From Bacillota bacterium (GTDB taxonomy: Bacteria > Bacillota_I > Bacilli_A > Erysipelotrichales > Erysipelotrichaceae), in NCBI GenBank assembly GCA_023249475.1, contig JAHFCO010000007.1:1-64000 (forward strand): a DNA stretch of 64,000 nucleotides, written 5' to 3'. Both the position numbers and the translations under genes were made by a program. Shown piece by piece: positions 11,853 to 33,817 of the stretch. The notes under the pieces are model-generated. The model saw only the letters and a list, made by a program, of their open reading frames with translations, was not told the DNA's origin and did no database searches. Numbering within the stretch: position 1 is the stretch's first letter; every line of letters starts with the position of its first letter.

Positions 11853-12098
11853 ATGACGATCGAAATCTGTATCGGTAGTTCGTGCTATGTGAAGGGGTCG
11901 GATAAAATCGTGCTCCTGGTCAAGGAAATCCTGGTGAAACGCGGTTTGGACGCGAAAGTCGAACTGAAGGGTTCGTTCTGTATGAACGCTTGCACGCAAG
12001 GGATCGGAGTGAAGATCGACGGGAAGATGATCCGTCTGTTGGATCTTGACCTCGCCGAGAAACAACTCAACCTCGCCATCGACGAGGCCTTGTCATGA
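11853..12098 (+). CDS. thioredoxin-like [2Fe-2S] ferredoxin domain protein (NuoE/HndA-like, minimal)
   Basis: 81 residues. The Cys pattern C6-x4-C11...C43-x3-C47 is that of the thioredoxin-fold [2Fe-2S] domain of NuoE and HndA, here as a stand-alone minimal domain. Such small proteins are often encoded beside [FeFe]-hydrogenases as electron carriers. Its stop overlaps the start of the hydrogenase-like sensor gene by ATGA, so the two products are made together. It probably passes electrons to or from that protein; this is inferred from context. Confidence 0.85.
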   Translation: MTIEICIGSSCYVKGSDKIVLLVKEILVKRGLDAKVELKGSFCMNACTQGIGVKIDGKMIRLLDLDLAEKQLNLAIDEALS

Positions 12099-13759
12099 AT
12101 CCGATTTCGCTTTTCGAAGCGAACTGTAAATCCTGCCACCATTGCGTACGGGCCTGCGTGACCAAGGCGATTTCCTTCGTCAACGGGAAACCGGAGATCG
12201 ACGATGAAGAATGCATCCTGTGCGGGGCATGCTATACCGTCTGTCCCCACGATGCCAAACAAATCACCAGCGACCTGGCGCAAGTCCGCCAATGGATCCT
12301 CAACGGCGAGGAAGTCATCGCCAGTCTGGCCCCCAGTTATCCCGTGTTGAACGCGGATTTTTCCGCATGGAAGAAACGCCTGCTTGAAGTCGGATTCAGC
12401 GATGTCGTCGAGACGGCCCAAGGTGCGGCCTATGTTTCCTCGGAATACGTCCGACTCGGTGCCCACTATCCCGACCAAACCTTCATTTCGACCTGCTGTC
12501 CCGCGGTCGTGACCTATATCGAAACCCGCTATCCCCAATTGACTCATCTTCTAGCACCGACCTTATCCCCGATGGTGGTCTCCGGGAAACTGATCAAGCA
12601 GGACCATCCTGCGGCGAAAGTCGTCTTCATCTCCCCCTGCGTCGCCAAAATCAATGAGGCGTCAGAGTTCAGGTCGTTCATCGACGGGGTCGTCACGATG
12701 AGCGAACTCGACCAACTGGTCCGGATCTACGACGACCGTTATCCCCCAAACAACCCTGAAGTCTTTTCAGGCAGGATCGCACGCAGTTATCCAGCGTCCA
12801 CGGGGATCCTGAAATCGATGCGCCCCTTCGTTTCCGACAACGTCGACCTGATGTGCGTGGAAGGGGTGGACCGGGTCAAGGAAGTCCTGGACGGACTTAT
12901 GAACCATGAATTGCCCTCGACCTTCATCGAAATGAGCGCCTGCGTCGGGTCGTGCATCAACGGACCGATCCTGCGTCCCTATAAAGACCGTGAAATCGCG
13001 GCGATCCAGGCATTGCGTACGACCCGTGTCTTGGACAATCTTCCGATGGATCCCACATTGGTTGCGACGACCCACGTCGCCCATCCTTTAGTACAAAAGA
13101 TCCACCTTGAATCCGACATCTTGTCCGTTCTTGAGAAACTCGGGAAAACCGATCCTTCAAAAGAACTGAATTGCGGAGCCTGCGGTTATCCGACCTGTCG
13201 CGAAAAAGCGGTGGCGGTGTTGGATAAGAAGGCCGACCCCTATCTCTGTCTACCGTTCGCGTTGGAGCGTGCCCAGTCGATGTCCAACGCGGTCATCCAG
13301 CACACCCCCAACGGAATCATCATCGTGGATGACGAAGCCCGCATCGTCGAAATCAACCCGGCCGCGCGTCAACTTTTGTCATGCGTCAATTTCCCCGTGG
13401 TCGGTTTCCCCTTGGAAGCCCTGCTTCCCGACCCCCAACTCAAACCCCTAGTGTTGGATCGTACGCAGGTCCATTACATCCAAAGCGACTACCCCCAGTA
13501 CGGACGCACCTTCATGCATGCGACCGTGCCTTTACCCGAAGAACGCTGCACCTTGATCATCCTGATGGACCTTACCCAGGAAACCACGCGGGAAAAACAC
13601 CTGAAACAAGTCCGTACCGATACCTTGCTTGTCACACAACAGGTCTTGGATGAACAGATGCGCACCGTGCAGGAAATCGCGAAACTATTGGGAGAGACCA
13701 CGGCGAAAAGCAAGATCGCCCTGTCCCGCCTGAAAAAAAGCGTCGAGGAAGACCAATGA
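12095..13759 (+). CDS. sensory [FeFe]-hydrogenase-like protein with ferredoxin, Fe-S and PAS domains (HydS/HsfB-like)
   Basis: 554 residues. N-terminal 2x[4Fe-4S] ferredoxin (Cys11, 14, 17, 21 and Cys40, 43, 46, 50). The H-domain follows with H-cluster motifs in sensory form: L1 STCCPAVV (Cys134/135), L2 SPCVAK (Cys182) and L3 EMSACVGSCINGP (Cys283/287), instead of the GGG of catalytic enzymes. A [4Fe-4S] domain CGACGYPTC...C (Cys360, 363, 368, 385) leads into a PAS domain (about 395-500) and a C-terminal helical tail. The family is thought to sense H2 or redox state rather than turn over H2 quickly. It overlaps the phosphatase gene by ATGA and is likely its upstream input. Maturases HydEFG are not in the window. 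Confidence 0.9.
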   Translation: MNPISLFEANCKSCHHCVRACVTKAISFVNGKPEIDDEECILCGACYTVCPHDAKQITSDLAQVRQWILNGEEVIASLAPSYPVLNADFSAWKKRLLEVGFSDVVETAQGAAYVSSEYVRLGAHYPDQTFISTCCPAVVTYIETRYPQLTHLLAPTLSPMVVSGKLIKQDHPAAKVVFISPCVAKINEASEFRSFIDGVVTMSELDQLVRIYDDRYPPNNPEVFSGRIARSYPASTGILKSMRPFVSDNVDLMCVEGVDRVKEVLDGLMNHELPSTFIEMSACVGSCINGPILRPYKDREIAAIQALRTTRVLDNLPMDPTLVATTHVAHPLVQKIHLESDILSVLEKLGKTDPSKELNCGACGYPTCREKAVAVLDKKADPYLCLPFALERAQSMSNAVIQHTPNGIIIVDDEARIVEINPAARQLLSCVNFPVVGFPLEALLPDPQLKPLVLDRTQVHYIQSDYPQYGRTFMHATVPLPEERCTLIILMDLTQETTREKHLKQVRTDTLLVTQQVLDEQMRTVQEIAKLLGETTAKSKIALSRLKKSVEEDQ

Positions 13760-14934
13760 TCGAAACACGCGTCAACGCGGCTTTTCGTTCGTTGACGAAA
13801 ACCAAGGAAGAACTCTGCGGGGACGATGTCCAAATCCGCGTCGACGAAAAGAACTTCGTGTTGGTATTGGCGGATGGCTTGGGTAGCGGCGTCAAGGCGA
13901 ACATCCTGGCGACTCTCTCCGCAACCATCATCAGCGAACTCTTGATTCAAGGCTTGGATCTCAGCGAAGCGGTCGCGACCTTGGTGGCGACCCTGCCTGA
14001 ATGCGAAGAACGGCACATCGCCTATGCGACGTTCGCCGCCTTGATGATCGATGCGAAGGGGAAAGCGCAACTGGCCGAATTCGACCAACCCCAAAGCGTC
14101 CTCTTCCGAAATCGACGGGAACTTCCGATTCAGCGCACGTCCAGCCTCATCGAAGGGAAAACGATCTTCGAAGCCCGCTTCGACGTCCTTCCCGGGGATG
14201 TTTTACTCTGCTTCTCCGACGGCGTAGAACACGCAGGTCTAGGCCGTATCCTGAATTTCGGCTGGCAACGCAAGGAAATCGTGCGTGCCACGGAAGAAAT
14301 CCTGATGAAAACCATGAATCCGATCCACCTCGCGGATCGCTTGATCGATCAAGTCGACTCCCTCTATCATTTCGAAGCGGGGGACGACGCGACCGTCGCC
14401 TTCGCCGTCGTGGAAGGGAACCAGGAAAGCGCGGTGCTTGTCGGTCCGCCCTCGGATCCGTCGCAGGACCATCGTTTAGTGTATGAATGGCTTTCCCGTC
14501 CGGGTGCGAAAATCGTCTGCGGCGGAACGACCGCGTCGATGGTCGCACGTGAACTCAATCTCGAACTGAAAATCGGTGAGATCCTCCCCGGGGCGACCTT
14601 GCCTCCGGCCGGATCCATCCACGGGGTCGACCTTGTGACCGAAGGCGTGTTGACGCTCAGTCGTACAAGAGATCTTCTTCGCCATGCCTCGTTGAATCAA
14701 AACGCCCTGCAGATCTTGTTGAACGACGACAGTCCGGACGCGGCGACCCGCTTGGCACGCAAACTCCTGGAAGGACCGGTCAAAGTACGGTTCATGCTGG
14801 GGCTGGCGGAAAACCCCGCACATAAGGCAGAAAAAGGGTTGCTGATCTCGCTCAACGCCAAACTCAACCTTGTCCGCGAGATTGCGGAAGAATTGAGAAA
14901 ACAAAGGAAATTAGTAACTGTGGAGATGTATTGA
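13756..14934 (+). CDS. SpoIIE-like PP2C-type serine phosphatase, output of the hydrogenase sensor
   Basis: 392 residues. The SpoIIE/PPM fold occupies about residues 1-220 with metal-binding motifs ADGLGSG (Asp40-Gly41), FSDGVEHAG (Asp155) and GDDATVAF (Asp210, Asp211), so an active Mn/Mg-dependent phosphatase is expected. The C-terminal 170 residues contain GAKIVCGGTTASMVAR, a domain I do not recognise from classical SpoIIE. It overlaps the HydS-like gene by ATGA. Such a phosphatase next to a sensory hydrogenase is known in Clostridia; by analogy it may act on an anti-sigma-factor antagonist, but none is encoded nearby. A terminator ends the operon. Confidence 0.88.
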   Translation: MIETRVNAAFRSLTKTKEELCGDDVQIRVDEKNFVLVLADGLGSGVKANILATLSATIISELLIQGLDLSEAVATLVATLPECEERHIAYATFAALMIDAKGKAQLAEFDQPQSVLFRNRRELPIQRTSSLIEGKTIFEARFDVLPGDVLLCFSDGVEHAGLGRILNFGWQRKEIVRATEEILMKTMNPIHLADRLIDQVDSLYHFEAGDDATVAFAVVEGNQESAVLVGPPSDPSQDHRLVYEWLSRPGAKIVCGGTTASMVARELNLELKIGEILPGATLPPAGSIHGVDLVTEGVLTLSRTRDLLRHASLNQNALQILLNDDSPDAATRLARKLLEGPVKVRFMLGLAENPAHKAEKGLLISLNAKLNLVREIAEELRKQRKLVTVEMY

Positions 14935-30252: not shown

Positions 30253-31275
30253 ATGAAAAAAATATTGATCATCGGCGGTACGGGGACGATCTCTTCCTGG
30301 ATCACCCGGCATTTCGCCCAGGATCCCTTATGCGATGTGTATGTGATGAATCGGGGAAGAAAGAACGACCAACTTCCTCAGAACGTTTCCGTGTTGATCG
30401 CGGACATCAACCAAAAAGACCAGGTCGAGGCGGCGATCCAAAACCATCGGTTCGACAGCGTCATCAACTTCGTTCTCTTCACCCCCGACCAGGCAAGACA
30501 AAACATCGAACTCTTCCGCAAGAAGACTGATCAATTCATCTTCATCAGCACGGTCGCCACATTGAACCATGAAGGGCATTTGTTATTAAGTGAAACTTCC
30601 CCGCAAGGGAATGAGTATAGCGAATATGGGCGAAACAAAGAAGCCTGCGAGATAATCTTTCTCGAGGCGTATCAACACGAGGGCTTTCCGGTGACAATCG
30701 TCCGTCCTTCCCAAACCTACGGGGAAGACCGGATCCCGTTAAGCATCAAGGGGAAAACCTGTTGGTCGGTGATCGACCGCATGCTTAGAGGCAAGGAAGT
30801 CATCATCCACGGGGAAGGCCAATCCGTCTGGGTCAGCACCCATGCGCAAGATTTCGCGAAAGGCTTCGTGGGATTGGTCGCCAATCGTAAAACCCTGGGG
30901 CAAACCTACCAGATCATGAGCGACAAGGCTCATACCTGGGACGACATTTACCTGGAATTGGCCAGACTCCTTAAGGTCGAATACCGACCGGTCTATATCC
31001 CCAGCGACATCCTGGCGAAATCCGCAAGCTATGACTTATTGACCTCGATCCAAGGGGACAAGCATTTCTCCTGCCTCTACGATACACGCAAGATCAAAGC
31101 ACTGTTCCCCGACTTCCACTGTGAAATCGACATTCAGGCCGGGTTGAAACTCTACCTCGACTACATGGAGGAACATCCCGAACTGAAACTGGAAGACGCC
31201 GCTTTCGATGTCTGGTGTGATAAACTGATCAACCGATACAAAGAAGCGACGGAAAACCTGATGGAGAACCTCTAA
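30253..31275 (+). CDS. NAD-dependent epimerase/dehydratase (extended SDR)
   Basis: 340 residues. A Rossmann motif IIGGTGTISSW begins at residue 5; the active-site Tyr and Lys lie in YGRNK (Y-x3-K), preceded by the Ser/Thr stretch FISTVATL. Extended SDRs of this type act on nucleotide sugars or related substrates. The exact substrate is unknown. It lies after the two-component system with a weak SD (GAGGTAC) and no clear promoter, and ends in a hairpin that also serves the convergent heliorhodopsin. Confidence 0.85.
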   Translation: MKKILIIGGTGTISSWITRHFAQDPLCDVYVMNRGRKNDQLPQNVSVLIADINQKDQVEAAIQNHRFDSVINFVLFTPDQARQNIELFRKKTDQFIFISTVATLNHEGHLLLSETSPQGNEYSEYGRNKEACEIIFLEAYQHEGFPVTIVRPSQTYGEDRIPLSIKGKTCWSVIDRMLRGKEVIIHGEGQSVWVSTHAQDFAKGFVGLVANRKTLGQTYQIMSDKAHTWDDIYLELARLLKVEYRPVYIPSDILAKSASYDLLTSIQGDKHFSCLYDTRKIKALFPDFHCEIDIQAGLKLYLDYMEEHPELKLEDAAFDVWCDKLINRYKEATENLMENL

Positions 31276-31302
31276 ATAAAAAAAGGACGCGCGAGCGTCC
31301 TT
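31273..31302. terminator. terminator (mainly for the heliorhodopsin, minus strand)
   Basis: AAGGACGC-gcga-GCGTCCTT. On the minus strand the stem is followed by a long T run (complement of AAATAAAAAAAA); on the plus strand the T tail is poor. Confidence 0.8.
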
Positions 31303-31315
31303 CGACGTATTCCGA

Positions 31316-32101
31316 TTACATCGGTTGCATGACACCCGAGAAGACCAACCAGGCCAACACGGATTTCGCAACCAAACTCAAGACGATGTACGTACGTTCC
31401 CCGTACAGGTAGTTCTTCCATTTCCCGACCTTCAGGTACTGAAGGATCATGTTGATGGGGAAAAGGTTGAAGAAGACGAAGTAGGATCCCACGATTGCAT
31501 AGACGAACCAAGGGACTTCCGCAGGATTCGCATTCCCGAAGGCGTAGAGGAGAATGATGATCCACGGTCCGATCCCGGCGACGGAACCGAAGATGAAGGC
31601 CGACCAGTCGGTCTTTTTCTTGAACTGGTTGATCTCTTCCATCAACAAGCCGAACCAGTTCATCGAGGCGTTCAGGAAGAAGATGGCGATCAAGGCACCG
31701 ATGTCATAGACACCGAACAACTGGGCGATCAACACGATCATCACCGAAGAACTCAGTGCGTATTCATGCCAACGGAAACGGTTGATCCCTTTCGCCAAAT
31801 CGGCGTTGTAGATCTTGTTGGTTTTGGGATAGACGATGATGAAGTGGGCTAAAGCGGAGAGAAAGAGGAAGGAAGATACGGCGATGGCGAAGGGCATGTC
31901 CCCGATTTTTCCGGGCAAGGTGACCAAACGCATCTGGACGGGATCGAAAGAGAGGTAATAGGATAGGATCGGTGTTTTGAAATTCGCGATCTTCTCGATG
32001 GTGAGGGCGAAAAACAACATCAGGCTTCCTTGGACGAAATGCAGACTTCCCATGATTAGATTGAATTTACGTAGTGATTTAAAGTCGATGACTTTCTTCA
32101 T
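31316..32101 (-). CDS. heliorhodopsin
   Basis: 261 residues, seven predicted membrane helices. Diagnostic residues match heliorhodopsin rather than type-1 rhodopsin: Arg110-x2-Glu113 in RWHEYALSSS (Glu counterion, E107 in HeR-48C12), Asn144 in the LNAS segment, His21 and His86 in helices 1 and 2, and the retinal Schiff-base Lys246 in LSLVAKSVLAW (K241 in HeR-48C12). Heliorhodopsins bind retinal with a long photocycle and inverted membrane topology; their role is debated (signalling, enzyme or transport control). SD CAGGAG. No retinal or carotenoid genes lie in the window. Its own promoter and terminator make it monocistronic, divergent from a DUF1576 gene. Confidence 0.93.
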   Translation of the reverse strand: MKKVIDFKSLRKFNLIMGSLHFVQGSLMLFFALTIEKIANFKTPILSYYLSFDPVQMRLVTLPGKIGDMPFAIAVSSFLFLSALAHFIIVYPKTNKIYNADLAKGINRFRWHEYALSSSVMIVLIAQLFGVYDIGALIAIFFLNASMNWFGLLMEEINQFKKKTDWSAFIFGSVAGIGPWIIILLYAFGNANPAEVPWFVYAIVGSYFVFFNLFPINMILQYLKVGKWKNYLYGERTYIVLSLVAKSVLAWLVFSGVMQPM

Positions 32102-32141: not shown

Positions 32142-32169
32142 ATTGTAAGGGTTTATGCCCTTGAAACAA
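32142..32169 (-). promoter_or_regulatory. putative heliorhodopsin promoter
   Basis: On the minus strand: TTGTTT (32164-32169), a 16-bp spacer and TACAAT (32142-32147). A second TACAAT lies at 32131-32136. Confidence 0.5.
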
Positions 32170-32485: not shown

Positions 32486-32545
32486 CATCACTTAAGGATT
32501 ATTCATCCCCCCATTCACATGACGGAATCGTTCAACGGAGGAACC

Positions 32546-33817
32546 ATGAAGAATAAAATCAAAATCGACCCCAAATACGGACTGATGATCGGTGTGGCGT
32601 TCGCACAGATCCTTTTCGGTTTCTCCCAAAACAGCGGGGCGGAGATATTAAGCGGATTGAAATCCATCCTCACCCAACCCTCGAGTTTGATCAGCGACTA
32701 CATCGGACTTGGAAACATGGGCGCTGCGTTCGTGAATTCCGGACTGGTCCTCCTTGTCCTCCTCTTCTTACTGTCTTTTCTAAAACAAGCACTGAACGGA
32801 CCCCTGATCGCCGCCCTCTTCACGATTACGGGATTTGCATTCTTCGGGAAAAACCTATTCAATGTGTGGCCGATCCTCTTAGGAGTTTATGGTTACTCGA
32901 TCTTCAAAAAAGAGAAGTTCAACAAGTTTCTGGTCGCCGCCTTGTTCGGGACGGCCATGGCGCCGGCGATCTCCGAGATCGCCTTCGGGAGCAGCCTTTC
33001 CTTGATGATCAGTCTTCCATTGGCCTTGTTCTCAGGCATCCTTCTTGGCTTTTTGATCTACCCTCTCGCCGTTTCGCTCATCAACGTCCATCAGGGATAC
33101 AACCTCTACAACATCGGATTCGTCGTCGGGATGACCGGCCTGGTATTTGTCTCGATCCTACGCTCGTTCGGCTACGTCCCCACGCCGAAACTCATCTGGA
33201 CGACCGGCAACAACCTCGTCCTCGGTATTTATCTTATCACCTTGTTTATCTTGATCCTGCTTTATGGATTCATCATCAACAACCAATCGTTTAAAAACTA
33301 TCGGGAAATCCTGGATCATTCCGGGAAACTGATGAGCGATTTCATCCAACTTGAAGGCTATGGCGTGACCCTCATCAACATGGGCTTGGTCGGATTGATT
33401 TCGGTATTCTACATCCTGCTTATCCAAGGGGATTTGAACGGACCGACCATCGGGGGGATCTTCACGGTCGCCGGTTTCGGGGCGTTCGGGAAACATCCGA
33501 AAAACATCCTCCCGATCTTTCTCGGCGTTCTTCTCGGTTCTCTTCTTAAAGTCTTCTCGATCAATGACCCCTCCATTCAGTTGGCCGCCTTGTTCGGGAC
33601 GGCCTTGGCTCCGATCGCTGGGAAGTTCGGATGGCCATGGGGCGTGGTCGCCGGGTTCGTCCATTCTTCCGTCGTGTTGAATGTCGGTTATCTCCATGGC
33701 GGATTCAACCTCTACAATAACGGGTTCTCGGCAGGATTGGTCGCCGCGGTCCTCCTCCCGATCATCGGGATGTTCACGAAAAATGAATCGACGGCTACGA
33801 CTGAAAAGAAATCGTAG
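32546..33817 (+). CDS. DUF1576 polytopic membrane protein
   Basis: 423 residues with about twelve hydrophobic segments arranged as two repeats: the motif LNGPLIAALFTITGFAFFGK in the first half recurs as LNGPTIGGIFTVAGFGAFGK in the second, and AALFGTA..P occurs twice. This internal repeat suggests a transporter-like fold, although the family has no assigned function. The ATG at 32546 has CGGAGGAA before it; an ATG at 32519 has no SD. The last codons form the left arm of the terminator. It is divergent from the heliorhodopsin gene. Confidence 0.85.
   Translation: MKNKIKIDPKYGLMIGVAFAQILFGFSQNSGAEILSGLKSILTQPSSLISDYIGLGNMGAAFVNSGLVLLVLLFLLSFLKQALNGPLIAALFTITGFAFFGKNLFNVWPILLGVYGYSIFKKEKFNKFLVAALFGTAMAPAISEIAFGSSLSLMISLPLALFSGILLGFLIYPLAVSLINVHQGYNLYNIGFVVGMTGLVFVSILRSFGYVPTPKLIWTTGNNLVLGIYLITLFILILLYGFIINNQSFKNYREILDHSGKLMSDFIQLEGYGVTLINMGLVGLISVFYILLIQGDLNGPTIGGIFTVAGFGAFGKHPKNILPIFLGVLLGSLLKVFSINDPSIQLAALFGTALAPIAGKFGWPWGVVAGFVHSSVVLNVGYLHGGFNLYNNGFSAGLVAAVLLPIIGMFTKNESTATTEKKS

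Follow-up and report, generated by a model that had tools for sequence, protein, structure and literature searches.

Why should an apparently anaerobic member of the Bacillota carry a heliorhodopsin (HeR) gene with no carotenoid or retinal genes beside it, and what might the protein serve? The gene lies in a stretch of 64,000 nucleotides from an Erysipelotrichaceae assembly (GCA_023249475.1, contig JAHFCO010000007.1; the whole stretch is called the window here), and the original prediction had considered a light-sensitive protein unexpected in such a host. This was overstated: HeRs in strictly anaerobic Firmicutes have already been published (PMC8612252), and a scan for relatives returned more than 500 loci related to the window HeR, of which the 80 kept came mostly from Clostridia and other Bacillota. 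The host is an apparent anaerobe, judging from the earlier description and from a [FeFe]-hydrogenase-like gene in the window; the hydrogenase sensor predicted there was indeed found, at 12095-14934, as a sensor-like pair in which a SpoIIE-type phosphatase comes after a [FeFe]-hydrogenase-like protein that bears ferredoxin and PAS domains. The window HeR is thus a further member of a known family. Hosts that carry a rhodopsin but lack retinal genes have likewise been published. What we add is a xenologous origin of the gene and a family-level match with DNA photolyase, which support a light-protection role, with a physical partnership as a hypothesis. Taken as a whole, the locus is best explained, and we think quite probably, by a horizontally acquired functional type-3 rhodopsin that acts as a retinal-scavenging light-protection sensor, with the photolyase as leading candidate partner.

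Identity and gene anatomy of the window heliorhodopsin

The window open reading frame (Table 1) is a full-length, intact heliorhodopsin by family membership, predicted fold and pocket. In a Pfam profile search, residues 10-258 matched positions 1-242 of the 242-position profile PF18761 (E=1.1e-99; 333 bits vs 26.7), and the NCBIfam HeR model NF038020 scored 316 bits at a cut-off of 100, which bears out the predicted identity. A sequence search of the PDB retrieved HeR 48C12 (E about 2e-57) as well as TaHeR. Alignment with 48C12 placed H23 at H21, H80 at H86, E107 at E113, Y108 at Y114, N138 at N144, S237 at S242 and K241 at K246, so that Glu113, Asn144 and Lys246 are displaced by 5-6 residues, as had been proposed. 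The counterion Glu113 falls within predicted helix 108-128 (helix 3), and the SxxxK motif, S242/K246, within predicted helix 231-258 (helix 7). An AlphaFold model built on 27 sequences (pLDDT 89) consists of seven helices and a long extracellular ECL1 beta hairpin (residues 42-70); its best PDB matches were all heliorhodopsins (TM 0.83-0.92), compared with only about 0.5-0.7 for type-1 rhodopsins. The N-terminus and cytoplasmic loops hold 17 K/R residues vs 4 outside, a positive-inside pattern that would fit the inverted HeR topology with the N-terminus in the cytoplasm. The window protein therefore resembles 48C12 (PDB 6su3; about 50% identical) and TaHeR (PDB 6is6) in fold, counterion, Schiff-base lysine, both pocket histidines, N-terminus-in charge pattern and ECL1 hairpin. 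It differs from 48C12 in the pocket, where I142, A210 and Q213 are replaced by N148, P215 and M218, as they are in all 100 aligned Bacillota-type relatives; we dropped these three residues as lineage-specific features because some are already present in other PDB HeRs. N-terminal MORN repeats are absent from the window HeR, and Met1 marks the start of the HeR core.

Table 1. Positions in the window of the heliorhodopsin gene, its signals and its neighbours
Feature	Position	Strand	Basis or remark
Heliorhodopsin CDS	31316..32101	-	261 aa, ATG start; profile, PDB and model matches
Intrinsic terminator of HeR gene	31282..31303	-	9-bp stem, T run
Probable HeR promoter	32142..32169	-	-35 TTGTTT (32164-32169), 16-nt spacer, -10 TACAAT (32142-32147); inferred from footprint
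NAD-dependent epimerase/dehydratase (SDR superfamily), convergent neighbour	30253..31275	+	same order in sister genome G136
DUF1576 membrane protein, divergent neighbour	32546..33817	+	ORF and profile match

The gene had been credited with a promoter and a terminator of its own. The terminator held up well: it folds beyond shuffled sequences (z about -3) and is conserved in the sister genome, and the same stem also sits just beyond the convergent epimerase gene. The promoter, TTGTTT-N16-TACAAT, is plausible, as both hexamers are identical in the sister genome while the spacer has diverged (a two-genome footprint); it is missing from the list of a consensus promoter scan upstream of HeR. The structured leader claimed for the divergent DUF1576 gene was not borne out, since it folds no better than shuffles (z 0.66 and -0.90) and found no match in an Rfam search; this gene more likely starts at 32546, where an ATG is preceded by GGAGG, than at 32519. 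SDR genes belong to the ten neighbour classes that recur in HeR operons (PMC11109279), but those share an operon with HeR, whereas the window epimerase is convergent and outside it. Across genera we found no conserved HeR operon partner, gene order being common only within genera, and a search for phage carriage of HeR gave no match.

Selection and horizontal origin

In the sister genome (G136, the only other genus member compared), the HeR is 98% identical and lies in the same gene order. A codon alignment of the two genes gave a dN/dS of about 0.04, with dS below that of neighbouring genes, and the window HeR is under strong purifying selection. Other HeRs of the same bacterial family are only about 60% identical to it. 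In a tree of 37 HeRs, the window pair fell apart from these, inside a group of 16 rows (support 99/94) that joins it with Clostridia, Halobacteroidaceae, Alkalibacterium, Enterococcus, Lactovum, Sphaerochaeta, Thermotogales and MORN-HeRs. Monophyly of the family's HeRs was rejected (AU p=1.4e-4, for a group chosen with knowledge of a first tree). The HeR of the window genus is, on this phylogeny, xenologous, gained by horizontal transfer separately from the copies of its relatives. Such a foreign affinity is also what contamination of the metagenome-assembled genome would produce, but we regard contamination as very improbable, given that the sister genome has the gene with the same order and neighbours and with diverged synonymous sites, and that the window contig is 82 kb long.

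Several related loci were observed in other hosts. A 72%-identical HeR (L126, NZ_CP141705.1, 5592-6368) is carried by a 10.5-kb mobilizable (MOBP) plasmid of Lactococcus petauri with an IS6 transposase nearby and 8 annotated features, none of them a carotenoid gene; a vehicle for the transfer of such HeRs therefore exists. In Sphaerochaetaceae (Spirochaetota, normally diderm), HeRs occurred in 3 of 139 genomes (L049 8001-8768, L050 7418-8185, L127 and L130), with contamination possible; one of them sits on a 229-kb contig, and one gene flanking a Sphaerochaeta HeR is rare in Sphaerochaetaceae and hence uninformative about contig origin. MORN-HeR-like, N-terminally extended proteins from Syntrophomonadaceae and other Bacillota (L056-L063, L066, L068, L087) share the window HeR clade, and the MORN-like extension probably arose within the transferred group because the extended proteins fall there. 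The published MORN-HeRs of Syntrophomonadaceae, strictly anaerobic Firmicutes (PMC8612252), are 71-74% identical to the window HeR and differ from it in carrying this extension.

Chromophore supply

The original prediction noted no carotenoid or retinal genes locally, and this now extends from the window to the whole genome (2.09 Mb, 96% complete), in which neither phytoene synthase nor RPE65 was found, by searches whose positive controls gave matches, and Blh had no match in a weaker search run without a positive control. These results make it unlikely that the host synthesises retinal de novo. The prediction had offered two ways out, that retinal comes from elsewhere or that it is dispensed with altogether. 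The first part stands, in that the host probably scavenges retinal from its surroundings: retinal auxotrophy has been described in hosts of working rhodopsins (PMC12422013; PMC11561045), and sediment Bathyarchaeota carry HeRs without a complete retinal pathway (PMC7110647). The second, a retinal-independent membrane protein whose fold is retained for another role, would account for the missing phytoene synthase, Blh and RPE65 matches, but is improbable in view of the reported auxotrophs, the strong purifying selection and the equivalents of Lys246, Glu113, His21, His86 and Ser242 being kept in 100 of 100 aligned Bacillota-type relatives. Phytoene synthase was found in some HeR-positive relatives (G035, G183). 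In G183 (genus g47), an ABC1-kinase gene comes after the HeR, as do two genes resembling carotenoid desaturases (L042 3552-9188), with phytoene synthase on the same contig.

Co-occurrence with photolyase and proposed role

With retinal scavenging as the preferred reading, the proposed mechanism runs as follows. Retinal from the surroundings would probably be bound at Lys246, light (probably green) would be absorbed and isomerise it, and a slow conformational signal would pass through the cytoplasmic face to soluble partners, the role being light-protection sensing, not ion pumping. The leading candidate for such a partner is a putative class-II-type CPD photolyase whose gene lies on another contig of this genome than HeR (G000:C29:145257-145745), a class suggested by its best match, phr2 (class II), at 413 bits, below the 550-bit cut-off; the photolyases scanned likewise had phr2 as best match, below the curated cut-off.

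We surveyed 295 genomes of the order, 188 of them with a completeness of 90% or more and a contamination of 5% or less. In these 188 good genomes, HeR and photolyase were each present in 11, the identical set, and the other 177 had neither (a sub-threshold HeR match in G114 being scored as negative). Over all 295, HeR scored above cut-off in 22 and photolyase in 16: both genes occurred in 15, HeR alone in seven and photolyase alone in one (G282, 79% complete). Completeness is 86% or less in each of the seven HeR-only genomes, among them G203, whose HeR is broken; in genus g48, HeR was present and photolyase not found in a genome that is 66% complete, and a genus-level Fisher value that omitted g48 was set aside. 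The uncorrected Fisher p of the co-occurrence is about 5e-18, a value that ignores relatedness and gives no probability of coupling. The window-type photolyases of four genera fall into a single clade that leaves out the photolyase of G127; the latter is closer to the Trichococcus type and adjoins its HeR divergently. The co-occurrence spans no fewer than two HeR origins and two kinds of photolyase.

A precedent exists in Trichococcus flocculiformis, whose HeR (TfHeR) binds and boosts a class II photolyase, so that repair reaches into green light (PMC9769723). Like the window HeR, to which it is 61% identical, TfHeR comes from a member of the Bacillota with a class-II-type photolyase in its genome, and its binding residue K227 aligns with Lys224. 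It differs in sharing one operon with the photolyase, and its second binding residue, R162, aligns with a gap in the window HeR, where a shortened loop holds KKK. By analogy, the window HeR possibly binds photolyase as the Trichococcus protein does, and a HeR-photolyase partnership is the hypothesis suggested by co-occurrence and this one published homologue. Against it stand the unlinked genes, the unmatched R162, p-values blind to relatedness and a shared habitat that explains the pattern equally well.

The chief rival is this common habitat reached by light, and it competes with the photolyase-partner part of our explanation, not with the sensor part. Both genes would then merely mark illuminated lineages, and HeR, still a retinal light sensor, would serve another partner, such as a two-component system, a transporter or a metabolic enzyme. 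We give this somewhat less than an even chance. It agrees with the lack of linkage in the window genome and most relatives, with HeR neighbourhoods that differ between genera, with a histidine kinase and a response regulator two and three genes from HeR in both genus members, and with other HeRs that regulate glutamine synthetase (PMC9529153) and an ABC transporter (PMC11109279); it accounts less readily for the exact match over the 188 good genomes and for HeR-photolyase adjacency recurring in G127 and Trichococcus. A stronger form of the partnership is tentative and, at present, rather doubtful: the family's HeR and class II photolyase may form an unlinked light-repair module that is gained and lost together. 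In such a module, a sensor using scavenged retinal would let photolyase also act under green light in anaerobes, and HeRs from different donors could be swapped as long as photolyase is present.

The exact genome match with a class-II-type photolyase, both genes being rare in the family, together with separate HeR origins, points to a concrete and testable partner. This candidate occurs in hosts without demonstrable chromophore synthesis. G203 also speaks for the partnership: no photolyase was found in this genome, and its HeR at L045 7958-8525 is a degraded pseudogene that contains stops and has lost the Lys motif.
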